Shown piece by piece: positions 49,218-64,000 of a DNA stretch of 64,000 nt. Location of the stretch: the NCBI RefSeq assembly GCF_000302595.1, contig NZ_JH947126.1, positions 156,454 to 220,453 of the forward strand, written 5' to 3'. Below the pieces are notes generated by a model. That model ran no database searches. It worked only from the letters and a program-made list of their open reading frames with translations, and had not been told where the DNA came from. Both the position numbers and the translations under genes were made by a program. Each line of letters opens with the position of its first letter. The first letter of the stretch is position 1. This DNA comes from Pedobacter arcticus A12 (GTDB lineage: Bacteria > Bacteroidota > Bacteroidia > Sphingobacteriales > Sphingobacteriaceae).

Positions 49218-49248
49218 CAAAAAAAATTTCAAAACATATTAAATATTG

Positions 49249-51588
49249 ATGAATCTTAAACACCTATTCTTTTACCTCTTTATAGCTAGCTTTATTATCA
49301 ATATTACAACAGCAAATGCTCAAAAAAACAACATTTTAAATGGAGTTATCAAAGATGCAACAACGGGAGAAACCTTAATTGGCGCATCTGTTCAGGTAAA
49401 TGGCACCACTTCTTTAGGTACTGTTACCAATGCTTATGGCTATTATTCGTTAGCCATTCCTGCTGGTATTTACGAAGTAATTTACAGTTATGTAGGCTAT
49501 CAAACAATCAAAAAAAACATCAGTTTTTCTGGAGATTTAACGCAGAATATAGCACTTTTTTCCTCAAATCAACTAAACGAGGTCATTGTGAACGCCGAAA
49601 AGCGAAACAATAATGTTGAAAATCCTTTAATGGGCGTACAAAAACTGAACGTTAAAGAAATAAACAATATACCCGTATTATTTGGCGAAAGAGATATTTT
49701 AAAAACGCTACAATTGTTACCCGGTATAAAATCCGCCGGCGAAGGCAATAGCGGTTTTTACGTTAGAGGCGGTTCTACAGACCACAACCTTATATTGTTA
49801 GACGAAGCGCCGGTTTATAACGCCTCTCACCTATTGGGTTTTTTCTCAACCTTTAATTCTGATGCGATAAAAGACGTTACGGTTTATAAAGGTGGTATGC
49901 CAGCACAATACGGTGGTAGATTAGCGTCTGTTTTAGATATTAAGATGAACGATGGCAACAAGAAAGATTACACAATTGAAGGTGGAATTGGCTTAATTGC
50001 ATCAAGGTTGAAAGTTGAAGGACCCATTGAAAAAGATAAGAGTTCTTTTATGATTAGTGGTCGAAGAACGTATGCGGATAGTTTCCTAGCTTTCTCCTCA
50101 GACAGTAGCGTTAAGGGTAGTAGACTTTATTTTTACGACTTAAATGCCAAGGTTAACTTTATCTTAGACAGTAAAAACATCCTTTACCTTTCTGGCTATT
50201 TTGGCAGAGACAAACTAGGCTTAAAAGACAGCTTTGGCTTTGATTGGGGCAATACTACAGGAACAATAAGGTTAAATCATTTATTTTCTAATCGCCTGTT
50301 TTCCAATACTTCTTTAATTTACAGTAACTACAACTATTTAATTCAGAGTCTTTTGGAGGATAATGATTTTAGTGTAAAATCGTCTATCAAAGATTTTAAC
50401 CTGAAACAGGATTTCCAGTTTACGGCAAACAATGCCCATGAGATAAAATTTGGTTTAAACGCAATCCACCATACCATTACACCCGGTAAAATAACAGCCA
50501 GCCAAACTTCAAGCGTTAACGAAAGTGAAATTGAGAACAGAAAAGGCTTAGAACTGGCAGTTTATTTTTCTGACGAATATAAGGTGAGCGAAAAACTTAA
50601 TGTAGCTTACGGCGCTAGATTTAGTAATTATGCTGCTTTAGGAGCAGGAACATTTAAAACCTACGATACAAACGGAGACATCACCGGCTCTGAAACCTAT
50701 AAATCTGGCGAGCTGGTTAAAAACTATTTCAATCTAGAACCACGCCTATCTGCAGCTTATCAGCTTTCGGAAAGCAAATCTTTGAAAGCATCATTTACCC
50801 GCAATACCCAGAACTTACACTTAATGTCTAATTCAACAGCAACATCGCCTACAGATTTATACATTATGAACAGCAATAACGTAAAACCCGAAATTGCTGA
50901 TCAGTTTGCGCTGGGCTATTTTAGCAATTTCCGAAATGATAGCTACGAGTTTTCTACCGAGATCTATTATAAGGATATGAAAAACCAAATTGAGTACCGA
51001 AACGGTACTGATTTGCGTGGAAACCAAAATGTAGAAGGTGATTTGTTATTTGGCGACGGCAGAGCTTACGGAATTGAACTGTTTTTAAAGAAACGTTTCG
51101 GCGATTTTAACGGTTGGATTGGTTATACTTTAGCAAAAACAGAAAGACAGTTTGCGCAGATCAATGATGGCAAATGGTTTAATGCAAAACAGGACCGTAC
51201 GCATGATTTATCAATAGTTGGTATTTATAAAGCCAGTAAACGCTGGACGCTTTCTTCCACTTTTGTTTACAGCACCGGAACTGCAGTTACTTACCCTAGC
51301 GGAAAGTATCAGCTTAACGGAGAAACTGTTTTTTATTATTCAGAAAAAAACGGATACCGCACTCCTGCTTATCACCGTTTAGATTTATCGGCAACTTTAG
51401 AACCTAAGCTTGTACCAAATAGGAAATACCAATCAAGCTGGTCGTTCGGTATTTATAATGCATACAACAGAAAGAACCCTTTTTCTATTGATTTTAAAGA
51501 CAATCCAGACAATCCTACAAAAACACAAGCGGTACAAACTTCGTTATTTGGCATTATTCCATCAGTTACCTGGAATTTTAAATTTTAA
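49249..51588 (+). CDS. TonB-dependent receptor with carboxypeptidase-regulatory-like domain
   Basis: A 779-aa outer-membrane receptor: signal peptide (ending TTANAQ), carboxypeptidase-regulatory-like domain (LNGVIKDATTGETLIGASV, about residues 30-48), plug domain with GFYVRGGSTDHNLILLDEAPV (partly cited) and a 22-strand-type barrel ending in VTWNFKF with a C-terminal Phe. ATG 49249 is chosen over TTG 49246. The next gene is a DUF4249 lipoprotein, a pairing seen often in Bacteroidota. No SusD is present, so it is not a Sus-type pair. Substrate unknown. Confidence 0.9.
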   Translation: MNLKHLFFYLFIASFIINITTANAQKNNILNGVIKDATTGETLIGASVQVNGTTSLGTVTNAYGYYSLAIPAGIYEVIYSYVGYQTIKKNISFSGDLTQNIALFSSNQLNEVIVNAEKRNNNVENPLMGVQKLNVKEINNIPVLFGERDILKTLQLLPGIKSAGEGNSGFYVRGGSTDHNLILLDEAPVYNASHLLGFFSTFNSDAIKDVTVYKGGMPAQYGGRLASVLDIKMNDGNKKDYTIEGGIGLIASRLKVEGPIEKDKSSFMISGRRTYADSFLAFSSDSSVKGSRLYFYDLNAKVNFILDSKNILYLSGYFGRDKLGLKDSFGFDWGNTTGTIRLNHLFSNRLFSNTSLIYSNYNYLIQSLLEDNDFSVKSSIKDFNLKQDFQFTANNAHEIKFGLNAIHHTITPGKITASQTSSVNESEIENRKGLELAVYFSDEYKVSEKLNVAYGARFSNYAALGAGTFKTYDTNGDITGSETYKSGELVKNYFNLEPRLSAAYQLSESKSLKASFTRNTQNLHLMSNSTATSPTDLYIMNSNNVKPEIADQFALGYFSNFRNDSYEFSTEIYYKDMKNQIEYRNGTDLRGNQNVEGDLLFGDGRAYGIELFLKKRFGDFNGWIGYTLAKTERQFAQINDGKWFNAKQDRTHDLSIVGIYKASKRWTLSSTFVYSTGTAVTYPSGKYQLNGETVFYYSEKNGYRTPAYHRLDLSATLEPKLVPNRKYQSSWSFGIYNAYNRKNPFSIDFKDNPDNPTKTQAVQTSLFGIIPSVTWNFKF

Positions 51589-51591
51589 AAC

Positions 51592-52389
51592 ATGAGAGCA
51601 TTTTACATTATATTTTTTGCCATTACTACATCGGTGTTTTTTAGTGCCTGCGAAAAGGTGATTGATCTAGATTTAAAGAACACAAAACCTGTTATTGTAA
51701 TTGAGGCCAACGTAAATGATAATTTTTCGCAACAAGTTGTTAAAGTAACACAAACCAAGCCTTTTACAGAGGATAACACCATAGTTCCCGTTACTGATGC
51801 TGTAATTACTTTAAAGGATTTAACAGATAACAGAACTTACAATTTTACCCTGACAGATAATGAAGGAACCTACCTTTCAACTAACTTCCGCGGAAAACCC
51901 GGAAACACCTACGAACTGAATGTAAGTGCGAATAACCAGGTTTACATTGCAAAATCAACAATGCCAAAAAAAGTATTGTTAGATTCTATATCTGTGGCAG
52001 AGGTTACGTTTTTTGGAGAAACAAATAAATATATCAAGGTTCATTATGCTGATCCAATTCAATATGAGAACCAGTACCGTTACCTTTTAACCGTTAACCA
52101 AAAGCCATCGAAAGGTTATTTTGTAGATTCGGACCGGTTTAATAATGGAAAATATGTAAGCAACACCCTATTTGATAGTGATAACGACTTAAAATCTGGA
52201 GATGAGATCAAAGTAGAGTCTCAGTGTATTGATATGAACATCTATCGCTACTTCTTTGCCATTTCGCAGATTAGCGGAAACGGTGGCCCGCCTACTGCAC
52301 CTTCAAATCCCGATTCAAATTTCAATAATGGAGCTTTGGGGTATTTTAATGCGCACACTACGGAGGTTAAAATGGCAACGATACAGTAG
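51592..52389 (+). CDS. DUF4249 lipoprotein, partner of the TonB receptor
   Basis: A 265-aa lipoprotein with signal peptide ending in FFSAC and then EKVIDLDLKNTKPVIVIEAN, the typical DUF4249 opening of a beta-sandwich domain. It starts 3 nt after the receptor stop, so the two are translated together. It presumably sits on the cell surface or in the outer membrane as a substrate-binding partner; that role is inferred from the pairing. Confidence 0.85.
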   Translation: MRAFYIIFFAITTSVFFSACEKVIDLDLKNTKPVIVIEANVNDNFSQQVVKVTQTKPFTEDNTIVPVTDAVITLKDLTDNRTYNFTLTDNEGTYLSTNFRGKPGNTYELNVSANNQVYIAKSTMPKKVLLDSISVAEVTFFGETNKYIKVHYADPIQYENQYRYLLTVNQKPSKGYFVDSDRFNNGKYVSNTLFDSDNDLKSGDEIKVESQCIDMNIYRYFFAISQISGNGGPPTAPSNPDSNFNNGALGYFNAHTTEVKMATIQ

Positions 52390-52592: not shown

Positions 52593-52868
52593 ATGAGTTT
52601 TCTAAGTAAAAAAATTATTCCTTCCGAAAATGCTGTTGTTCAAGAAATGGGTGAAGATATTGTTATACTTAATCTAAAAACAGAACATTTTTATGAACTT
52701 AAAGAAGTTGGAAAGAGAATCTGGGAATTATTATCTGAAAATCATAGTTATACTTTAACATTTGAAGCGATAAAAGGGGAGTATGAGGTTTCATCTGAAC
52801 AGCTTCATACCGATATGGAGCGTATAATAAATGGACTAATAAAAGCGGAACTTATCAAAATAAATTAA
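52593..52868 (+). CDS. Lasso-peptide B1 protein, PqqD-like RiPP recognition element
   Basis: A 91-aa protein of the PqqD fold. IVILNLKTEHFYELKEVGKR (residues about 24-43) is the characteristic strand-turn-strand with the leader-binding groove, and IWELLSE starts the first helix. In lasso-peptide systems this protein (B1) binds the precursor leader and hands it to the B2 protease. It is the first gene of the operon, and its stop overlaps the B2 start (TAATG). Confidence 0.88.
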   Translation: MSFLSKKIIPSENAVVQEMGEDIVILNLKTEHFYELKEVGKRIWELLSENHSYTLTFEAIKGEYEVSSEQLHTDMERIINGLIKAELIKIN

Positions 52869-53311
52869 TGTATTGTAGTAATGAGCTAAATAAGGTTAAT
52901 AAATGTTTAAGATCTCAAGATAATTTAGTTTTTTGGACAAGAGTATTCACTATATTTACCGAGGGCATTCTTCTTGCAACCAGCTTAAAAACCACCGAAA
53001 AACTATTGTCCGTGTTTAAAAAACACACCTTAACACTAGACCCAGAAGAAAAAATAATTATTGTTGATAGATATTTCACTATTATTAGCGAAATTAACCA
53101 GCAATCTTACCTAAAAGGAAGATGCCTTTCACAGTCTTTAATATTACGTTTACTTTTAAACAGAAAAGGAATCTTATCTCATCTAAAGATAGGAATGAGA
53201 CAATTAAACGGAAAGTTGGATGTTCATGCTTGGCTAGAAATTGATAATAAACCAATCAATGAGCACATTTCTGTAACCAAAAATTATCTCAAAATAATAA
53301 ATAAGAGCTAG
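52868..53311 (+). CDS. Lasso-peptide B2 protein, transglutaminase-fold leader peptidase
   Basis: A 147-aa protein. The catalytic triad of the B2 family is visible: Cys86 in GRCLSQSLILRLLL, His120 in VHAWLE, and a likely Asp126. Normal size for a stand-alone B2. It cleaves the leader from the precursor just before macrocycle closure. It is coupled to B1 upstream and followed 18 nt later by the cyclase gene. Confidence 0.88.
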   Translation: MYCSNELNKVNKCLRSQDNLVFWTRVFTIFTEGILLATSLKTTEKLLSVFKKHTLTLDPEEKIIIVDRYFTIISEINQQSYLKGRCLSQSLILRLLLNRKGILSHLKIGMRQLNGKLDVHAWLEIDNKPINEHISVTKNYLKIINKS

Positions 53312-53329
53312 GCCAAATTTTCAATTTTA

Positions 53330-55150
53330 ATGAGCGGATTCGTAGGAATTATAACTTCTAAATTAGAGCAGTTTGATATAGATATCTTAGACATTGCAAC
53401 AAGCTCTATGTGCCAAACTTGTGATGATTATTCGGGTTCGTGGCGAAGCGAGAAAGCTGATTTACGTTTTGCGTGGTTAAAAACCTTCGATGATACTGAT
53501 GATGAGCATCTTCCATTTACAATGGATGAAAATATCCGAATTATTGGAGATGTGCGACTAGATAATCGTATCAAACTTATAGGGGCGCTAAAGTTTATAT
53601 TTGGAGATGAGATCAGTAATTCAACTCCAGATTCCTACTTGGTCCTATATGCGTATAAGCAATGGGGAGAGCGTTGCCTAGACCACATTTCAGGAGATTA
53701 TGCATTTGCAATTTGGAATGAGAAAGAAGATTATCTTTTCTGCGCCCGAGATCATTTTGGTCTTGTGCCATTTTATTACACCCAACTCAACGATAAGTTT
53801 CTATTCACAAATTTTTACACATCCTTAAAAGATGTACCGAATCTTATTTCAGAGCTCGATGACGATGTTGTAAAGTCTTATTTATCCGCTGGATTGAACA
53901 ATTATTTTGATCAAACTATTTATAAAGACCTAAAAAAACTCCCACCAGCTCACCAACTTATTTATAAAAATGGAGTTGCTCATGTAAGTCGCTATTGGGA
54001 TGTACCAAATCAGATTAGCCCTATTCGTTACAAAACCACGAAGGAATACGTGGAGCACTTCTATCAATTATTTGAGCAATCTATAAATGATCGTACCCGA
54101 AACAGTAAGGTTGCGTCTTCTTTAAGTGGAGGTATGGATAGCTCTGCAATAACCGCAGTGACGAAAAAAGTTTTAAATGAGTGTTATGGTGCTAACCATG
54201 AGTTAAAATGCTTTAATATTGTTTATAAATATCTTGTGAACGAGAAAGAAGGTTTTTTTGGAGAAACGATAGCGAAACATTTAGATATACCGATAAACCA
54301 ATACGTAGCAGAGGATTACCTTAAAAAAATTTTAAAACCACTTGTCTCTTGGCTTCCCGAACCAATTGGGGTCCCGCATGCAACCCCTGAATCTCAGATA
54401 CTCTCAGACGTAGAAACATTTTCGCGAACTTATTTAACTGGGTTCGGTGGAGATCCTTTATTTGAATATGGAGAATCGGCTAAACAAAAGCTTAAAGAGC
54501 AAGGCTACAAAGTTCAGTCATATAAAGACGAGATTTTATTCTACCGCGTTTTCGGTCGCTTTTCTGGAACAAGCCTTCGGCATAAATTGATAGGTTTAAT
54601 TAAATCAAAACCTAAAAAAAACTTTAAAAAGTCAATCAACAACCACAAATATTCTCTTTTCAAAAATGTTTTTTCTTTCTCCAAAAAAACCGAGAATCTT
54701 GATTCTTTGCGTACTTACTTTGGAATGGTTAAAAATCCGTTTTGGTCCTCGCTATTTGAGATGTCTTATCCAGGATTTAATGGATATAAAGTTAAAGTAC
54801 GACAACCCTTCTTTTCTTTAGATTTATTTCTTTTTATCATTGCATTACCTCCACATCTGCTTTATAAAAAATCATTGCTACGCATGGCAATGACGCCTTA
54901 TCTCCCAACCGCAGTTATTACCCGACCAAAAACGCTTATTTTTAAAAATGCTCATTTTGAAAATTTACAAAATCATAATATAGCTGAAGTACTTAAAAAC
55001 AGTATTTCTAAAAAAAATAAAGTTTTCATTGGAAATGCAGATATGAAATCTTTAATAGAAGAAGCTACTAAATCTGATACATTAGCTAATTCAGATAGCG
55101 ACCTACTTATTATTTTTACAATCATGTCTTGGAACAATTGTGTTTTATAA
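53330..55150 (+). CDS. Lasso-peptide C protein, asparagine-synthetase-like macrolactam cyclase
   Basis: A 606-aa protein with an N-terminal class-II glutamine amidotransferase-like domain (1-200) that starts MSG instead of MCG, so the catalytic Cys2 is missing, and a C-terminal adenylating domain with the PP-loop SLSGGMDSSAI (Ser266-Ser272 region). This pairing is the hallmark of lasso cyclases, which activate an Asp/Glu side chain by adenylation and join it to the new N-terminus. The end overlaps the upstream region of the precursor gene frame, but the precursor ATG lies 33 nt after the stop. Confidence 0.9.
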   Translation: MSGFVGIITSKLEQFDIDILDIATSSMCQTCDDYSGSWRSEKADLRFAWLKTFDDTDDEHLPFTMDENIRIIGDVRLDNRIKLIGALKFIFGDEISNSTPDSYLVLYAYKQWGERCLDHISGDYAFAIWNEKEDYLFCARDHFGLVPFYYTQLNDKFLFTNFYTSLKDVPNLISELDDDVVKSYLSAGLNNYFDQTIYKDLKKLPPAHQLIYKNGVAHVSRYWDVPNQISPIRYKTTKEYVEHFYQLFEQSINDRTRNSKVASSLSGGMDSSAITAVTKKVLNECYGANHELKCFNIVYKYLVNEKEGFFGETIAKHLDIPINQYVAEDYLKKILKPLVSWLPEPIGVPHATPESQILSDVETFSRTYLTGFGGDPLFEYGESAKQKLKEQGYKVQSYKDEILFYRVFGRFSGTSLRHKLIGLIKSKPKKNFKKSINNHKYSLFKNVFSFSKKTENLDSLRTYFGMVKNPFWSSLFEMSYPGFNGYKVKVRQPFFSLDLFLFIIALPPHLLYKKSLLRMAMTPYLPTAVITRPKTLIFKNAHFENLQNHNIAEVLKNSISKKNKVFIGNADMKSLIEEATKSDTLANSDSDLLIIFTIMSWNNCVL

Positions 55151-55182
55151 AAAAAACGTTACTTTCGTTAAAAAACGACGAT

Positions 55183-55335
55183 ATGAACAAAGAAGAAACT
55201 ACTGGAAACTCTAAAAAAAACTACGCTGCACCAGAACTGAAGGAATTGGGGAAAATTGGAGAAATTACGAATACCACAAGTGCAGACAGCACTCATACTC
55301 AAGATGGTGGTGGTGGCCCAAATTACTATTCATAA
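55183..55335 (+). CDS. Lasso-peptide-type precursor peptide (50 aa)
   Basis: The likely ATG at 55183 gives a 50-residue peptide. The leader has the B1-recognition motif Tyr14-x-x-Pro17-x-Leu19-x-x-Leu22-Gly23 (YAAPELKELG), followed by KIGEIT. The C-terminal part is Thr/Ser-rich, then QDGGGGPNYYS. A ring-closing acid is likely Asp41: ring Ser33-Asp41 (nine residues, Thr31 at -2) or Ala34-Asp41 (eight residues, Thr32 at -2), leaving the tail GGGGPNYYS. The last residue, Ser50, suits phosphorylation by the HPr-kinase-like protein encoded next. An in-frame extension to 55129 overlaps the cyclase gene and is unlikely. Confidence 0.8.
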   Translation: MNKEETTGNSKKNYAAPELKELGKIGEITNTTSADSTHTQDGGGGPNYYS

Positions 55336-55349
55336 TTTGAAGTTATTGT

Positions 55350-56285
55350 GTGAAGTTTAAAATAGAATTCCACAATCTAACAGATTTTGATTTTTTGCTA
55401 CTGAAAGAAAAATTAGCATTTAAGCCTCATGAACAAAAATTTTCGCCAAATATATTTGGCGAAAATTTTTATACAGGAAGTAGTTTTGAATATGGTAATT
55501 GCTATCTGTTTGAGTATCGTGATGAACAAAAACCGATGGTTAGCTTCATCATTACTTCTGGTGGCAAAAATGTTTTCTGTAATTATCAGATTGAAGTCTC
55601 CCCTCAAACAGTTAGCTCGTTAATTAAGGGTAACATCAAAAAGTTTTGTTTGCAAGAACAGGGGTATTTTTGCTTGCATGCTTCGGCAATGCAGATAAAC
55701 GAAAAAATAATATTGTTTATGGGTAAAAAAGGTGCTGGAAAATCAACGCTAGCAAGTTTTTTTCACTTACAGGGACACGATATCTGGTGCGACGATTATT
55801 CTTTGCTACAGCAAGAAAAGAACTGCTTTCTTTCTTATCAAGGTGAAACCTCACTCAAAATCAATCCAGATATTTTATCTGCTTTAAATATTCCTAAGCA
55901 AAAAGTAAAAAATGTATTTGATCTTTCTGATGGTTTTAAAAAAAGCAATCAATATAAAACCTCTAGTTCTAAGGTCTACTTCCGCAATGATAAACCTGTT
56001 GAGAATAGCAACCCAAAACAGGTTGCAGCCGTATTTTTTTTACAGCAAAGAAGTTTTGATCCAGCGCTTTTAATTGAACCGATGAAGAAATCCGAAGCAC
56101 TTTCAACCTTAATGGAGGAAATACTATTGCCTGGTTTTAATTCAAAAGAATACCTAAAAACTTATTTCCAATCATCATTAAAACTTTTGGAACATGTACC
56201 TTGTTACAAAATACATGCTTCAAACGAAATTACCCGAATTAGTGAAGTATACCATTCTGTGTTTGAAACTTTAAACTTTTCTTAA
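55350..56285 (+). CDS. HPr-kinase-like protein, putative lasso-peptide C-terminal serine kinase
   Basis: A 311-aa protein whose C-terminal half matches the HPr kinase fold: P-loop GKKGAGKST (125-133), His110 in FCLHASA, and Asp148-Asp149 in WCDDYS, the positions used for catalysis in HPr kinase. In paeninodin-type lasso clusters such kinases phosphorylate the C-terminal Ser of the precursor, and this precursor ends in Ser. The start is GTG at 55350, 14 nt after the precursor stop; an in-frame TGA blocks any earlier start. There is no HPr nearby, so a carbon-control role is unlikely. Confidence 0.85.
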   Translation: MKFKIEFHNLTDFDFLLLKEKLAFKPHEQKFSPNIFGENFYTGSSFEYGNCYLFEYRDEQKPMVSFIITSGGKNVFCNYQIEVSPQTVSSLIKGNIKKFCLQEQGYFCLHASAMQINEKIILFMGKKGAGKSTLASFFHLQGHDIWCDDYSLLQQEKNCFLSYQGETSLKINPDILSALNIPKQKVKNVFDLSDGFKKSNQYKTSSSKVYFRNDKPVENSNPKQVAAVFFLQQRSFDPALLIEPMKKSEALSTLMEEILLPGFNSKEYLKTYFQSSLKLLEHVPCYKIHASNEITRISEVYHSVFETLNFS

Positions 56286-56287
56286 AC

Positions 56288-58363
56288 ATGTTGCAAGCTG
56301 CTGATGAATATCCGCTACTAGGTGCGGCAAAGGATTTCTTTTGTACGCTCCCCGAAACAATTGTTTCCGCTCCCCAGCTAGATTTGCTTAAAAAGGCTGC
56401 TGCTTTTTTTCCTCCTATTATCCGCTTTGCATTAGAGTGCCGCTTGAATAAGCAAGATCAGGTCGATCTGCAGTTTTGTATTAGAAGAGACGAGGACGAC
56501 TTGGCATCAATTTTAAGCTGGTTTGAGAGAAAACTTTCTGGAAATGGAGAAGATCAACTACTTCTTTCTTTTTTAAAAGAGTGGGCAGATAAGAACTCTT
56601 TTTATCACAAAAGTATACCTGAGATATTTTTAGAACTTGATGTTAATTCACCTAATTTAAATGTACCCCTTTTATTTTTTGAGCTAGAGACCAGCCTTAC
56701 CAGCACTCAAAGAAAAGATTATTCTTTATTTATCTTAAATAATACGTTAGGTAAAAACAAACCTTATTATAAGTTATTAGAGACGATTATAGAAGCCTGT
56801 CCAGATCCTGCATACCTAGCATACTTAGGAATTCTATTTTCTAGAAATAATGACGTTTTACGTGTAAATATAAAAAAATTACCATACTGCTCTGTAGTTC
56901 CTTTTTTACAGAAAACTGGTTATAAGTGGCTTAGTAAAGAGCTCGAGTATTGGCTGTCGTTAATATATACTTACGCAGACCGTATAACTTTATGTATCGA
57001 TATTGGCTCAGAAATTTATCCAAAAATTGGTTTTGAATGTTTTTGGAATGGGCAACCCAGCACCGAAACTTATTGGAAGGATTTTATTGAAAAGCTGAAA
57101 CTTGACAGTATACTTGAAAAAGACAAAATAAAAACAATACTAGAATGGAACGAAGATGTTTTTCCGGGGAAGATTGAGAATTGGCCAAGTCATCTTTGGC
57201 TAGATTCATTAGGTAAATCCGAAAGTGAATTTACCTACTTAAAAAAGTGGATTTCTCATTTAAAACTATCTTACCAGCCAGAGAATGAAATTGAAATAAA
57301 GGCTTATCTCGCTTATGAAAGTTTATGGATGTCTCAGAATACGATTAATTTAGATAGCTTACAAAAGCAAGAAAATCAAATTTACGATGAGCCTCAAGAA
57401 CTAGAAAAAGTAATCGACAAAGGAATCGACTTTCTTTTATCAAACCAAACTCAAGCTGGCTGGTGGAAAGATTTTCACCTAGAGCCAGGAACTAGCGATG
57501 AATGGGTAACAGCTTATGTTGCTTATTACCTTTCTAATTTAAAAACTCAAAAAACTCAAAAATCACTAGAAAAAGCTTGGGATATATTAAAGACGAGATA
57601 CCGCATGAATGAAGGTTGGGGTTATAATGCCTTAACACGAGGAGACGCGGATAGCACCACATGGGTTTTGCACTTTACTAACTCCGAGAACTTAATTGGC
57701 AACCTTGATATATGTTTTTTAAGTATAGTGGAAAAACATATTTCAGAGGATGGCGGTATAGTTACATACGCAAAGCGTCGCTCTTTAGAAAAAGAAGCAT
57801 TAGTTGCCACTAGTGTACTTTTCAACGGCTGGCAAATACCCCATAATTGCGTAACCGCAGCATATGCACTAACGGGAAAACAACATGCTATTGATTACCT
57901 AATTAATCAACAAGATAAAGACGGTTTTTGGTATGGTTACTGGTGGGATGGTTACGAGTATGCGACAGGGCTCGCTACAGAAGCACTTTATAGTAAAAAC
58001 GCAGAAAAATATAAGAAATCAATTGAAAGTGCTATAAACTGGGCAACGCATGAGGCAAATAGAATATTAAATGCATCCTTTCCTAACACTTTCAAACTTG
58101 CTTTTCTATTGCGGATACTATTATGCGATAATTCCGAAAAAGAAAATTCTATACTGAAGCAGAAAATAACTACAGTACTAATCAATTCACAAGAACAGCA
58201 AGGATGTTGGAAGTCTGATGCGATATTGAGATCTCCAAATTCTAACGATCGGAATCATGAAAACGGTAAAAATATACCAGTCTTTAAGGATCAGATGAAA
58301 AATTTTACTACAGTTACAGTTTTAGATGCGTTGAACAAATATGCGCTATCTCTTATTAAATAA
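56288..58363 (+). CDS. Lasso-cluster protein: unknown N-terminal domain plus squalene-cyclase-like alpha/alpha toroid
   Basis: A 691-aa soluble protein starting 2 nt after the kinase stop. Residues 1-370 are an unrecognised helical domain with a conserved-looking DIGSEIYPKIGFECFW stretch (238-253). Residues about 375-691 form terpene-cyclase/prenyltransferase-type toroid repeats with QW-like motifs: QTQAGWW (387-393), QQDKDGFW (541-548) and QEQQGCW (635-641), plus TSDEWVTAYVAYYL (402-415). GDADSTTW at 452-459 aligns with the DxDDT proton-donor motif of squalene-hopene cyclases, keeping Asp453 and Asp455 but with Ser456 for the third Asp. It may modify or prenylate the peptide, or act on a lipid partner; the substrate is unknown. 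The 3' end overlaps the opposite-strand gene by 18 nt. Confidence 0.8.
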   Translation: MLQAADEYPLLGAAKDFFCTLPETIVSAPQLDLLKKAAAFFPPIIRFALECRLNKQDQVDLQFCIRRDEDDLASILSWFERKLSGNGEDQLLLSFLKEWADKNSFYHKSIPEIFLELDVNSPNLNVPLLFFELETSLTSTQRKDYSLFILNNTLGKNKPYYKLLETIIEACPDPAYLAYLGILFSRNNDVLRVNIKKLPYCSVVPFLQKTGYKWLSKELEYWLSLIYTYADRITLCIDIGSEIYPKIGFECFWNGQPSTETYWKDFIEKLKLDSILEKDKIKTILEWNEDVFPGKIENWPSHLWLDSLGKSESEFTYLKKWISHLKLSYQPENEIEIKAYLAYESLWMSQNTINLDSLQKQENQIYDEPQELEKVIDKGIDFLLSNQTQAGWWKDFHLEPGTSDEWVTAYVAYYLSNLKTQKTQKSLEKAWDILKTRYRMNEGWGYNALTRGDADSTTWVLHFTNSENLIGNLDICFLSIVEKHISEDGGIVTYAKRRSLEKEALVATSVLFNGWQIPHNCVTAAYALTGKQHAIDYLINQQDKDGFWYGYWWDGYEYATGLATEALYSKNAEKYKKSIESAINWATHEANRILNASFPNTFKLAFLLRILLCDNSEKENSILKQKITTVLINSQEQQGCWKSDAILRSPNSNDRNHENGKNIPVFKDQMKNFTTVTVLDALNKYALSLIK

Positions 58364-59521
58364 AAAAGAATAAAAGAGTTTAAAAGACTTTGTTGGAATA
58401 ATTAACGGGATAGCCCAAGCTGGTTTATCCGTAAGTGAAAGATCATTGGTATTTGGCACAAGTAACCAGGAGTAAGCTTTAACCTTGAATTTTATCCGCT
58501 CTGTAAAATCTAGTTTTAGACCGATAAGTTTTATTTTCTTAAACAAATTTTCCCGGTCATTTTTTGCTTTCATAAAAGAAAACAGATGATATTTGATAGC
58601 TGGTTTCTCAGATAATGGTATTTTGATACCAACTATTTCTTCTAACGCATTAACACCTGACCAAAGAAAAGGCGAAAATTTATACCGTTTAAAACCTGCT
58701 GCTATCTCCTCCCAGTTTAGATTCTTACCAGATTTATCAATAATACATGCTAAATCAATTAAATACTTAAACTTCAGTAAAGGTTCTCTGATTAAGTGAT
58801 GAGAAGCGATACACAGAAAATCATAAGTTGGTGATAAGGCCATACTTATTGTTCCATTACTATCGTGAGTTAAATGTTTGGCTAAGAAATCATATTCATA
58901 AAATTTACCAAAATAATTTTCCACTAGTTTCCATTGTAATTCTACAGAACAGTTTATGCCCAATTTATCTTTTGGAGACTTAAGCGATAGCTCACGCTGA
59001 TACTTTTTCAAAAAACCAATTTGATGTTCTGAGACATCGTAAGTTGATATAAAATCGTTTGATAAAAGGCATTCTCTCAATTTACTCAAATCATCCTTTT
59101 TGATCAGGAAGTCTATATCAGCGCTTTCCCTCATAGATAATGATCTATAATAACGGTTGGCAAACCTTACACCTTTATAATTAATTACTCTTATTCCAAG
59201 ATTACTAAATTGTTGACTTAAATGGTTAAGTAATTGTAATTGATATTTACCGAACAATATAATACCTACGGTATCTTTTTTCAATGCATTAAAAACTGAT
59301 TGGTCTATCGAGATGTTTGAGGTTATTACAATTTCATAGACAAAACCTCTGATATCATTTAATTGAACCAGTTTATAGAACAACAACCAGTTTATCTCTT
59401 CCTTTTCTAAGAAATCGTTCACTTCTCCCACGCTTTGCTTATCAAAATATAAGCGTGTTATAAGAATTATCAACGTTTCCTCATTTCCATATATCGTTTT
59501 GAGGTGACCTATACTAAGCAT
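58346..59521 (-). CDS. Nucleotidyltransferase-family protein (NTP_transf_5 type)
   Basis: A 391-aa protein on the strand opposite to the lasso operon. The INYKGVRF segment (113-120, Lys116-Gly117) and the YRSLSMRESADIDFLI segment (residues 125-140) match the uncharacterised NTP_transf_5 family, with the Asp pair Asp135 and Asp137 where the family consensus has GDIDLLV; here Gly is Ala. ASHHLIREPLLKFKYLIDLACII is the second family block (cited in part). Such proteins are repeatedly found beside lasso-peptide and related RiPP clusters, with unknown function. It is 12 nt downstream of the Nif11-like gene. Confidence 0.82.
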   Translation of the reverse strand: MLSIGHLKTIYGNEETLIILITRLYFDKQSVGEVNDFLEKEEINWLLFYKLVQLNDIRGFVYEIVITSNISIDQSVFNALKKDTVGIILFGKYQLQLLNHLSQQFSNLGIRVINYKGVRFANRYYRSLSMRESADIDFLIKKDDLSKLRECLLSNDFISTYDVSEHQIGFLKKYQRELSLKSPKDKLGINCSVELQWKLVENYFGKFYEYDFLAKHLTHDSNGTISMALSPTYDFLCIASHHLIREPLLKFKYLIDLACIIDKSGKNLNWEEIAAGFKRYKFSPFLWSGVNALEEIVGIKIPLSEKPAIKYHLFSFMKAKNDRENLFKKIKLIGLKLDFTERIKFKVKAYSWLLVPNTNDLSLTDKPAWAIPLIIPTKSFKLFYSFLFNKR

Positions 59522-59533
59522 ATCTTACCAAGT

Positions 59534-59728
59534 CTAAAACTTATTTGAGTGTTTAACCCATCGCATCTTCCAATCTATTTGAAAAGCTGCTTCAAGATCA
59601 TTCTCAGAACAAGGAAGACCTTTTGTATCGGATAGTATAACTAAATCTTCCATAGTAGAAATTTTCGAAGCCTTGTTTTTCGATTCCCTAATATCTTTAA
59701 TAACTTTTAATGCATTCTGAATTGACAT
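59534..59728 (-). CDS. Small Nif11-like protein
   Basis: A 64-aa protein, MSIQNALKVIKDIRESKN followed by MEDLVILSDTKGLPCSENDLEAAFQ, that matches the Nif11 domain pattern: an N-terminal SxxNAL helix, a central LxxLxxxxG turn and an ELxxAF-like helix. The domain is the usual leader of nitrile-hydratase/Nif11-type RiPP precursors. Here only about 11 residues (WKMRWVKHSNK) follow the domain and no double-Gly cleavage site is present, so it could be a short precursor or a regulatory/adaptor protein. It is co-oriented with, and 12 nt from, the nucleotidyltransferase. Confidence 0.72.
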   Translation of the reverse strand: MSIQNALKVIKDIRESKNKASKISTMEDLVILSDTKGLPCSENDLEAAFQIDWKMRWVKHSNKF

Positions 59729-61650: not shown

Positions 61651-64000
61651 TTAAGGTTTAATTAAATCGAAACCCCAATTTTTGCCTTTCTCGGTTGCTG
61701 GTACACCTTTCCCCATCCAAACAGGCATCAGCGCACCTTTCAAATAATGGTCAAAAAACTGCTGTTCCCTAATAGAAATATCTTTACGGTTCTGGCGCTT
61801 CATCAAATTATGTTCGTCGCCATTATAATTAAGCATCCAAACGGGCTTTCCTAATCTGCGCAAAGCAGTAAACATTTCTATCCCTTGGTACCATGGCACA
61901 GCACCATCGCCATCATTAGCCATAATCACAACAGGGGTTTGCACATTTGGCATTCTAAACAATGGAGAGTTTTCGGTGTATAATTCTGGTTTCTCCCAAA
62001 TTGTTGCACCTATTCTACTTTGCGTTTTTTCGTATTGAAACTGCCTGTTCATACCTGTTTGCCAACGTATACCGCCATAAGCAGAAAACATATTGACCAC
62101 CGGTGCGCCCGACCAGGCAGCAGCATATTTATCGGTTACGGTTATAAGGTGAGCGACTTGATAACCACCCCAGCTTTGCCCTTGTATGCCAATTTTGTTG
62201 CCGTTAACCCATGAGTTTTGTTTTAAATATTCAACGCCCGAATTAATAAATTCTTCGGCAGATTTGCCAGGATAGCCAATCTCGTAGCTGATATCTGGCG
62301 TAAAAACCAAATATCCATTGCTTACAAAATATGAAATATTTAATCGGGATGGCGTGGGCGCTGGTGCTTGATAGGCAAATAGCTTGTCCGACACTTTTTC
62401 ATAAAAATAAACAATCATTGGGTAGCTCTTTTTAGGATCAAAATCCTCTGGCTTATACAATACCCCAGTGGCTTTATAACCTTTCGGAGTTATCCAGTTC
62501 ACCAACATGGCATTTCCCCATTTATAATTGGCTTGTTGAGGATTGATATTGCTTAACTTAAGTTCGTTTTTAAAATTTGTGCTTGCATACACATCAGGAG
62601 AGTTTTGGTAATTTTCTTTCTGATAAACCATCATTTTGCTGTTCTCCGCTTTAATGGGTTTAGAAAAACTATAGTTTTCCATCACCAATTTTATTGGATT
62701 ACCAGGTTTGGCAATATCTTTTGTAAACCAGCCGTTTTGCTTAGTAAGCTGGTTAAAAGCACTTAACAATAGTTCACCTTTTTGGGGTACCGATTTTTTT
62801 TCTTTATCCAAAGCAGTGTAGCGAAACGTGGTTTTGTTTTGCTGGCCGAAAGCATTGGTCAAGTTTTTTCCAATACCTGTTTCGGGATTAAAAGACCAGA
62901 TGTCGTATTTATCATAAATTAAAACCTGTTTTTCATCTTCCGTAAAACCTCCATAATTATAAGATTTGGCATCATCGGGCACATCATTTTCATCATCGCC
63001 AAAAACACTACCTTTTTCTTGGATAATCTTGATCTTTCTATTTGTTAAAGCGCTGTAAGAAAACCAATTCTGTTCTTTTTCATCAAACCAAAGTACATGA
63101 TTTCCTTTCGGAGAAAATTTATATTCTGTTTTGGTGTTGGAACTAACCAGTGTCTTTTTACCAGTTTTCAAATTAATAAGATAGGCTGTTCTTAATGTTG
63201 CGCCATCCCACTGCATCGCAACCCTATTTCCAAAATCCGAAGAAAGCAAAGCGAAATCTTCATTTCCATCTTCTGGTAAATTAACAGTGTTTAGCTCCTC
63301 GGTGCCAAGCTGTAAAAACTTATTGTTTTTTAAGTCCACCATCGCCAAAAAACTCTCCTTTAGCTTTTTGCTCAAATTGGCTAATTGCATGGGTTGCAGA
63401 TATTCATCCTGGTAGTTCCAAATGTCTACTTTCGCAACTTCAAAATCAACAATGGTGGTATCCTTAGCTACAGGAATGGGCGCTGTTCCAAAAAACACCC
63501 GAGAACCATCTTTGCTAAAAAACACTTTCCCGTTTTCACTTACATGGTTATTTTGTGGCATGCCCACCGTTTTTGTAGAAACCAAGATGCTTGCGCTATC
63601 AGTAGTGAAATTATAAAAATAAAGATCATGAGGCTTTACCAAAGCTTTTTCCTCACTTTTATTACCCGTAAAAGCTATTTGTTTAGTTTTCTCATCAAAA
63701 GCGAAATTTTTGTACAATCCCTTACCACCGGTTAAAAATGTAGTTTTCTTACTGCTAGTTTCAAAAAGGTACACGCCTGGTTTTACAGAAGAATCCTTTT
63801 TTATCCCCGAACAGCTATAAATTAAATACTGCCCGTCTTTACTCAGCAGGTAATCATTTACACCTTTAAATTTAGCAGAATCTTTAGTTGCCAGATATTT
63901 TAAAACTAAAACACTACCTTCTTTAGCCTCGTTACTTTTCTCTTTCTCGTCTGCAAAAAAGTAAGCAGCATCTTGCAAACTTTCAGTCTTTTTAGTTTTG
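61651..64000 (-). CDS. S9-family prolyl-oligopeptidase-like protein, N-terminus beyond window (partial)
   Basis: The frame is open to the window edge; no start codon is reached (the TTG at 63976-63978 is internal and KTKKTESLQDAAYFF continues). At least 783 aa are visible. The N-terminal region is a beta-propeller; the C-terminal region is an alpha/beta-hydrolase peptidase domain with catalytic Ser in GQSWGGYQ, a probable Asp in MANDGDGAVPW and His in NGDEHNL. It is likely a periplasmic dipeptidyl or oligopeptidase. The signal peptide, if any, is outside the window. Confidence 0.88.
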   Translation of the reverse strand, partial: KTKKTESLQDAAYFFADEKEKSNEAKEGSVLVLKYLATKDSAKFKGVNDYLLSKDGQYLIYSCSGIKKDSSVKPGVYLFETSSKKTTFLTGGKGLYKNFAFDEKTKQIAFTGNKSEEKALVKPHDLYFYNFTTDSASILVSTKTVGMPQNNHVSENGKVFFSKDGSRVFFGTAPIPVAKDTTIVDFEVAKVDIWNYQDEYLQPMQLANLSKKLKESFLAMVDLKNNKFLQLGTEELNTVNLPEDGNEDFALLSSDFGNRVAMQWDGATLRTAYLINLKTGKKTLVSSNTKTEYKFSPKGNHVLWFDEKEQNWFSYSALTNRKIKIIQEKGSVFGDDENDVPDDAKSYNYGGFTEDEKQVLIYDKYDIWSFNPETGIGKNLTNAFGQQNKTTFRYTALDKEKKSVPQKGELLLSAFNQLTKQNGWFTKDIAKPGNPIKLVMENYSFSKPIKAENSKMMVYQKENYQNSPDVYASTNFKNELKLSNINPQQANYKWGNAMLVNWITPKGYKATGVLYKPEDFDPKKSYPMIVYFYEKVSDKLFAYQAPAPTPSRLNISYFVSNGYLVFTPDISYEIGYPGKSAEEFINSGVEYLKQNSWVNGNKIGIQGQSWGGYQVAHLITVTDKYAAAWSGAPVVNMFSAYGGIRWQTGMNRQFQYEKTQSRIGATIWEKPELYTENSPLFRMPNVQTPVVIMANDGDGAVPWYQGIEMFTALRRLGKPVWMLNYNGDEHNLMKRQNRKDISIREQQFFDHYLKGALMPVWMGKGVPATEKGKNWGFDLIKP

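Follow-up and report, generated by a model that had tools for sequence, protein, structure and literature searches.

A candidate operon for a lasso peptide with a cyclised terpene in Pedobacter arcticus A12

The closest described lasso systems, the paeninodin and pseudomycoidin clusters of Firmicutes, combine the enzymes B1, B2 and C with a precursor ending in Ser and an HprK-like kinase, and in the psm cluster a nucleotidyltransferase lies nearby; PadeK phosphorylates the Ser of a lasso peptide, and PsmN has been linked to hexose addition in pseudomycoidin (PMC9266682). Trp-prenylated lasso peptides, collinodin and others, are also known, with no mention of a cyclised terpene (PMC13352647). 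Terpene cyclisation on a peptide is described for NctPC, a fusion of an ABBA prenyltransferase and an MstE-like cyclase which geranylgeranylates a peptide Trp and cyclises the chain (Hubrich et al., 2024, as described in PMC13290415). MstE itself (PDB 6sbb-6sbg) is a stand-alone monodomain enzyme acting on a small prenylated substrate. Here, we describe a gene cluster in Pedobacter arcticus A12, located within a 64,000-nucleotide stretch of contig NZ_JH947126.1 (positions 156,454 to 220,453; hereafter, the window), in which an operon encodes B1, B2, C, a precursor (A), an HprK-related kinase (K) and a 691-aa protein (T). We propose, with a probability of roughly 0.68, that the product of this operon is a lasso peptide to which a cyclised terpene is attached.

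Compared with the paeninodin and pseudomycoidin clusters, the Pedobacter locus shares B1, B2, C, the precursor with C-terminal Ser, the kinase and a nearby nucleotidyltransferase but differs in gene order and in encoding T, no prenyltransferase or terpene cyclase having been described in those clusters. T resembles NctPC, compared here by description only, in that a prenyltransferase precedes an MstE-like cyclase in a single protein of a cluster for a ribosomally synthesized and post-translationally modified peptide (RiPP); however, NctPC is described as acting on Trp, whereas the precursor in the window is of the lasso type and its core lacks Trp. The known Trp-prenylated lasso peptides similarly share the prenyl group with the proposed product and differ in the acceptor. 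In the lanthipeptide prenyltransferase system MppC/MppE, as probably here, an ABBA-type prenyltransferase is tied to a Nif11-type leader, on which MppC depends, but that leader is in cis with the core (PMC12715784), whereas the Nif11-like domain of the window is a separate protein. Thus, fused prenyltransferase-cyclases and Trp prenylation of lasso peptides are already known, and the joining of such a fusion to a lasso cluster appears to be new: our literature search found no report of it, although the original NctPC mining list may include such loci. Terpene-decorated ribosomal peptides are a very recent addition to RiPP chemistry, and the lasso peptide is highly valued as a scaffold for drugs. 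If the proposal is correct, a handful of genes would yield a knotted, lipidated and ring-decorated peptide, and the existence of related clusters makes testing feasible.

Lasso enzymes and a fused prenyltransferase-cyclase

The six plus-strand open reading frames (52593-58363) were confirmed in the window and are tightly packed, as the original prediction from the sequence had it: B1 and B2 overlap by 1 base, and the following gaps measure 18 bp (B2-C), 32 bp (C-precursor, the largest), 14 bp (precursor-kinase) and 2 bp (kinase-T). The arrangement is conserved in four other species, with C identities of 40-56%, and therefore is not a chance one. Two features of the layout required revision. 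The cluster had been called complete at six genes, but a minus-strand pair encoding an NTP_transf_5 protein and a 64-aa Nif11-like protein (58346-59728) was assigned to it as well, and the position of the precursor after C, unusual relative to the best-known clusters, is the normal order in this clade.

The lasso class of the cluster is well supported by sequence comparisons. B1 matches PqqD (PF05402, E = 1.6e-11) and lasso_PqqD_Bac (E = 1.3e-14), an exception model whose cut-off it does not reach but which is its best hit, in line with its earlier designation as PqqD-like. B2, a transglutaminase-like peptidase, scores 49.4 bits against NF033537, the NCBIfam lasso_biosyn_B2 model (cut-off 33), and matches PF13471 (E = 9e-15). 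Of the Cys-His-Asp triad originally read in it, Cys86 and His120 are present, whereas the third residue is Glu132 in the window copy and Asp in all four aligned relatives. The best match of C is the lasso cyclase model NF033535 (E = 4e-78, under the exception cut-off); its N-terminus, MSGFVG, lacks Cys2, as had been noted, and an SGGMDS loop lies at residue 266. The fifth protein, previously called HPr-kinase-like, indeed matches HprK_rel_A (TIGR04352, E = 5e-11, under the cut-off) and has an intact P-loop, GKKGAGKS, at residue 125; this kinase and the C-terminal Ser of the precursor are present together, as in paeninodin-type clusters. The NTP_transf_5 gene occupies the same place in three related loci (L048, L049 and L035) and lies nearby in two more (L050 and L058), and by analogy a PsmN-like role of its product is possible.

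The product of the last plus-strand gene had been described as a toroid-fold enzyme; the protein is a fusion. On the strength of the predicted fold of its N-terminal half and the sequence of its C-terminal half, T is an ABBA aromatic prenyltransferase fused to an MstE-type cyclase. The first 350 residues match no convincing Pfam or NCBIfam family. The AlphaFold2 model of the N-terminal domain (pLDDT mostly 75-95) aligns, over residues 8-347, with CymD (6os3; VIA-align Z score 18.4, root-mean-square deviation 3.7 A, 294 aligned residues), and Foldseek matched it to AmbP3 (E = 3.7e-6). Residues E50, R52, R186, R192, K326, K338 and Y340 are conserved in nine homologues, a pattern compatible with the predicted prenyl transfer activity, no more. 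For the C-terminal domain, phmmer searches of solved structures returned MstE (6sbf, E = 7e-45 for residues 355-658) and the prenylcyclase 6ij1 (E = 5e-26); in an alignment with MstE over 300 residues (E = 3e-45), the GDADST of T lies across from the GDADTT of MstE, within the GDAD[ST]T motif shared by these homologues, and fits the DxD[S/T/D]T acid motif. The genome has two prenyl diphosphate synthase genes (PF00348), but neither falls inside the window, and none is near the cluster.

The order B1-B2-C-A-K-T with a fused T recurs in Pedobacter cryoconitis (L048) and Chitinophaga varians (L049), and with a prenyltransferase-only protein in a Mucilaginibacter metagenome-assembled genome (MAG; L050) and M. 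straminoryzae (L035, G173). Beside its Nif11-like gene, the MAG also encodes a 351-aa protein that contains a DADDTA motif and is probably a split-off cyclase. A separate lasso lineage (L058, G323:C1:14001-34000), with a C protein 32% identical over the 227 matched residues, encodes a cytochrome P450, a fused T, two precursors, a kinase, a sulfotransferase, C, B1, an NTP_transf_5 protein and a Nif11-like protein. About 10 kb beyond this locus (L096), a second Nif11-like gene lies directly behind what appears to be a C-terminal fragment of a cyclase. The lasso-type prenyltransferase is rare, being found in 3 of 399 family genomes and, among 18 sampled genomes of the genus, only in that of the window.

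The Nif11-like protein (63-71 aa) follows the prenyltransferase closely. Of the six lasso loci that bear a prenyltransferase, five have its gene next to the NTP_transf_5 gene. At the sixth, L050, it stands next to the gene for the 351-aa toroid protein, and the NTP_transf_5 gene lies a little further off, on the other side. It is absent from all five lasso loci that lack a prenyltransferase and have a detectable B2. Among the 399 family genomes, open-frame matches were confined to the same three that carry the lasso-type prenyltransferase (Fisher p = 1e-7, relatedness ignored), and in 295 class genomes to G000 and G323. The search was built from six sequences of these same loci, so that what informs is the lack of matches elsewhere. 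PF07862 is matched by two of these six (best E = 3.9e-5) but not by the copy in the window, and TIGR03798 matches stay under the cut-off. Arg56-Trp57 in the predicted last helix (residues 42-61) is invariant, and a Foldseek search with the model gave no significant match, which proves nothing. Because MppC needs a Nif11-type leader, we propose by analogy that the stand-alone domain probably replaces, in trans, the leader of the prenyltransferase. The strict pairing of the two proteins suggests how a tailoring enzyme made for the leader of one RiPP could have been transferred to a different RiPP class, and bears on the recombination of RiPP pathways.

More distantly related prenyltransferase domains are encoded in other RiPP clusters, which argues that this family modifies ribosomal peptides. 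They are found in lanthipeptide clusters, either with LanM and a Nif11-leader precursor (L036 and L071) or with LanM, a JmjC protein and a nitrile-hydratase-type precursor (L072 and L073), and near Nif11 or nitrile-hydratase-type precursors on cyanobacterial plasmids. Among the neighbouring cores, those of L036 and L071 and three short cores in L062 have Tyr but no Trp, and those of L072 and L073 have Trp but no Tyr, which fits an aromatic acceptor. The clusters at L036:9402-16353 and L071:7733-14679 are class II lanthipeptide clusters of Bacteroidota, with a core of about AGCGTSSTLPNPSYTMDCGASTQRCLCTL and a 450-aa companion without a Pfam family; those at L072:4529-10522 and L073:4012-10006 belong to the Pedobacter genus group.

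Precursor core and proposed pathway

The 50-aa precursor carries the leader originally read as YxxPxLxxLG: its sequence is YAAPELKELG, and the YxxPxLxxxGx5T motif is intact within YAAPELKELGKIGEIT. Matches to the lasso_cyano (E = 0.004) and lasso_leader_L3 (E = 0.06) models are both under the cut-off. Alignment of five orthologous precursors revealed a common KIGE[IV]TN stretch, with the canonical Thr at -2 kept in all five, and a Tyr-x-Ser end. The canonical cut places Asp at core position 9 in P. cryoconitis and C. varians and at position 7 in M. straminoryzae, and the L058 precursor, which ends TASGPFGTSVESGSYGS, has Glu at core position 9. The window and L050 precursors contain two additional residues after TN; both offer a second Thr at -2 two residues later, which would restore Asp at position 9, followed by a tail of nine residues (eight in L050). 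The acidic residue lies 10 residues from the C-terminus in the window, P. cryoconitis and C. varians and 9 in the Mucilaginibacter MAG. Judging from these sequences, the most likely core is S33-S50, with the leader cut two residues later than usual, a ring from Ser1 to Asp9 (Asp41) and a tail containing Tyr16, Tyr17 and the C-terminal Ser18. In one of the related lasso loci (L044:6468-8052), six tandem lasso-type precursor genes (MKNQEI...) precede the lasso C gene; cut at Thr-Leu, five of the peptides have Glu at position 9, and one has no ring acid.

From the observed gene content, domain identities, operon conservation and co-occurrence, we predict a pathway, including the lasso topology, the site of ring closure, the residue that accepts the prenyl group, the length of that group, the succession of the steps and the role of the Nif11-like protein. 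B1 would bind the leader and B2 would remove it, whereupon C would close an isopeptide ring of nine residues between the new N-terminus and Asp41 and thread the tail (GGGGPNYYS). With a polyprenyl diphosphate as donor, the prenyltransferase half of T would transfer a C15 or C20 chain onto the peptide, the acceptor most likely being a C-terminal Tyr, with a single His as the only other aromatic residue in the core. Using the middle Asp of DADST as the acid, the cyclase half would protonate the end of this chain and fold it into rings, in the way that MstE acts on prenylated phenols. K would phosphorylate the C-terminal Ser, on whose phosphate the NTP_transf_5 protein may place another group. 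The Nif11-like protein probably assists the prenyltransferase by providing, in trans, the type of leader that relatives of this enzyme in lanthipeptide clusters read in cis. The evidence points to prenylation with terpene cyclisation by T and C-terminal Ser phosphorylation by K as the modifications that the original prediction of a modified lasso peptide had left unspecified. That prediction is the best-supported reading, given the presence of B1, B2 and C, the intact leader and the Asp at position 9 in P. cryoconitis and C. varians. The fully specified version, a lasso peptide with a polycyclic terpene on the C-terminal Tyr and a fused T directed by a separate Nif11-like trans leader, is offered tentatively and is, on balance, doubtful.

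Alternative explanations

Several observations weigh against a terpene-bearing lasso product. The sequence profile of the prenyltransferase domain matches no solved ABBA enzyme, the fold alone doing so, and the AlphaFold2 model of the cyclase half is of low confidence, so the cyclase assignment rests on sequence. No cyclase is present at the M. straminoryzae locus, and the operon includes no transporter gene. In lasso precursors of the prenyltransferase-free clusters L040, L044 and L046, the Y-x-S end also occurs; conservation of Tyr was accordingly rejected as proof of the acceptor. The kinase and NTP_transf_5 genes are likewise common in prenyltransferase-free lasso loci of the family (L042, L044 and L046), and ABBA enzymes and MstE also use small phenols and indoles. 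Conceivably, then, the product is an ordinary phosphorylated, perhaps glycosylated, lasso peptide of the paeninodin/pseudomycoidin type, and T makes an unrelated small meroterpenoid or lipid. We consider this distinctly unlikely: T starts 2 bp behind K and occupies the corresponding position in the other four species, a further lasso lineage likewise has a fused T of its own, the prenyltransferase domain has distant relatives that adjoin RiPP precursors, and no gene for a small aromatic acceptor was found nearby. The least credence is given to the Nif11-like protein being the target of the prenyltransferase, that is, a second leader-type precursor instead of a helper. Nif11 domains are RiPP leaders, the co-occurrence is strict, and Trp57, the kind of residue targeted by NctPC, is invariant in all six members. 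Nevertheless, the protein ends a few residues after its last helix, with neither a separate core nor a GG cleavage site, neither a protease nor a transporter is encoded nearby, and the lasso precursor lies in the same gene string as T.

Other difficulties concern the lasso scaffold itself. After the canonical cut, the core in the window has Asp at positions 5 and 11 and none at positions 7-9, and shuffled sequences reach a ring fit such as that of the shifted cut in 30% of cases, so that the choice of core rests on comparison with the orthologues. Under the canonical cut after Thr29-Asn30, with Thr at -2 in all five precursors, the window and Mucilaginibacter MAG peptides would have Asp at position 11, and an 11-residue macrolactam closed at Asp41 might be either a variant of the lasso or a loop without threading. 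The larger ring is unlikely: the rings of known lasso peptides contain 7-9 members, Asp falls at position 9 in P. cryoconitis and C. varians, and the second Thr in both precursors with the insertion restores that position. Finally, Glu132 in place of the catalytic Asp and a C-terminus shorter than in the four relatives set the B2 of the window apart and, together with the insertion in the precursor, could signal a decaying cluster without a product, its relatives being productive. We regard decay as very unlikely, considering that all open reading frames are intact and of full length, the motifs of C, K and T are conserved, replacement of Asp by Glu is conservative, and the L050 precursor shares an insertion of the same kind.

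Gene coordinates, genomic surroundings and further relatives

Table 1. Features of the cluster and their positions in the window
Feature	Position	Strand	Basis
B1, PqqD-like leader-binding protein (RiPP recognition element, RRE)	52593..52868	+	PF05402, lasso_PqqD_Bac
B2, leader peptidase	52868..53311	+	NF033537, PF13471, alignment
C, asparagine-synthetase-like lasso macrolactam cyclase	53330..55150	+	NF033535; 56% identity to P. cryoconitis C
Precursor A, 50 aa, leader with YAAPELKELGKIGEIT	55183..55335	+	Leader motif; weak lasso precursor models
Proposed core SADSTHTQDGGGGPNYYS	55279..55332	+	Suggested by five-orthologue alignment and cut-site scan
K, HprK-related kinase	55350..56285	+	TIGR04352, P-loop; PadeK precedent (PMC9266682)
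T, predicted prenyltransferase-terpene cyclase fusion, 691 aa	56288..58363	+	Sequence and fold matches
T N-terminal domain, predicted ABBA aromatic prenyltransferase fold	56288..57337	+	AlphaFold2 model, VIA-align, Foldseek
T C-terminal domain, putative MstE-type class II meroterpenoid cyclase	57350..58360	+	phmmer; DADST motif 57644-57658
NTP_transf_5 nucleotidyltransferase	58346..59521	-	PF14907, E = 2.6e-32; convergent with T, 18 bp overlap
Nif11-like three-helix protein, 64 aa	59534..59728	-	Co-occurrence, models, helix prediction

The cluster does not stand out from its surroundings as a G+C island (0.32-0.36 inside versus 0.33-0.39 around), scans for sigma-70 promoters and terminators gave scores at or under the level of shuffled sequences, and PADLOC returned no matches. 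Across the genus, the right flank is conserved, with genes for methylglyoxal synthase and a transporter; a clean insertion site was considered and rejected, the left-flank genes not being found beside the right flank in the four relatives read. Directly upstream of B1, on the same strand, lie a TonB-dependent receptor and a small lipoprotein-like gene (49246-52389), which were not found at the clusters of the relatives. The same holds for a prolyl-oligopeptidase-like S9 peptidase encoded near the cluster on the minus strand (61651-63978); lasso isopeptidases are S9-like.

Relatives of the two halves of T also occur apart. Stand-alone distant relatives of the prenyltransferase domain (L059:10136-12231 and L061:9707-10777) lie next to pro-kumamolisin peptidase genes, with no obvious RiPP precursor at either locus. 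A 654-aa relative of the cyclase half (L037:9846-11810), without a Pfam family, has as its neighbours a PhyH dioxygenase and a 2708-aa protein that matches DUF6443.

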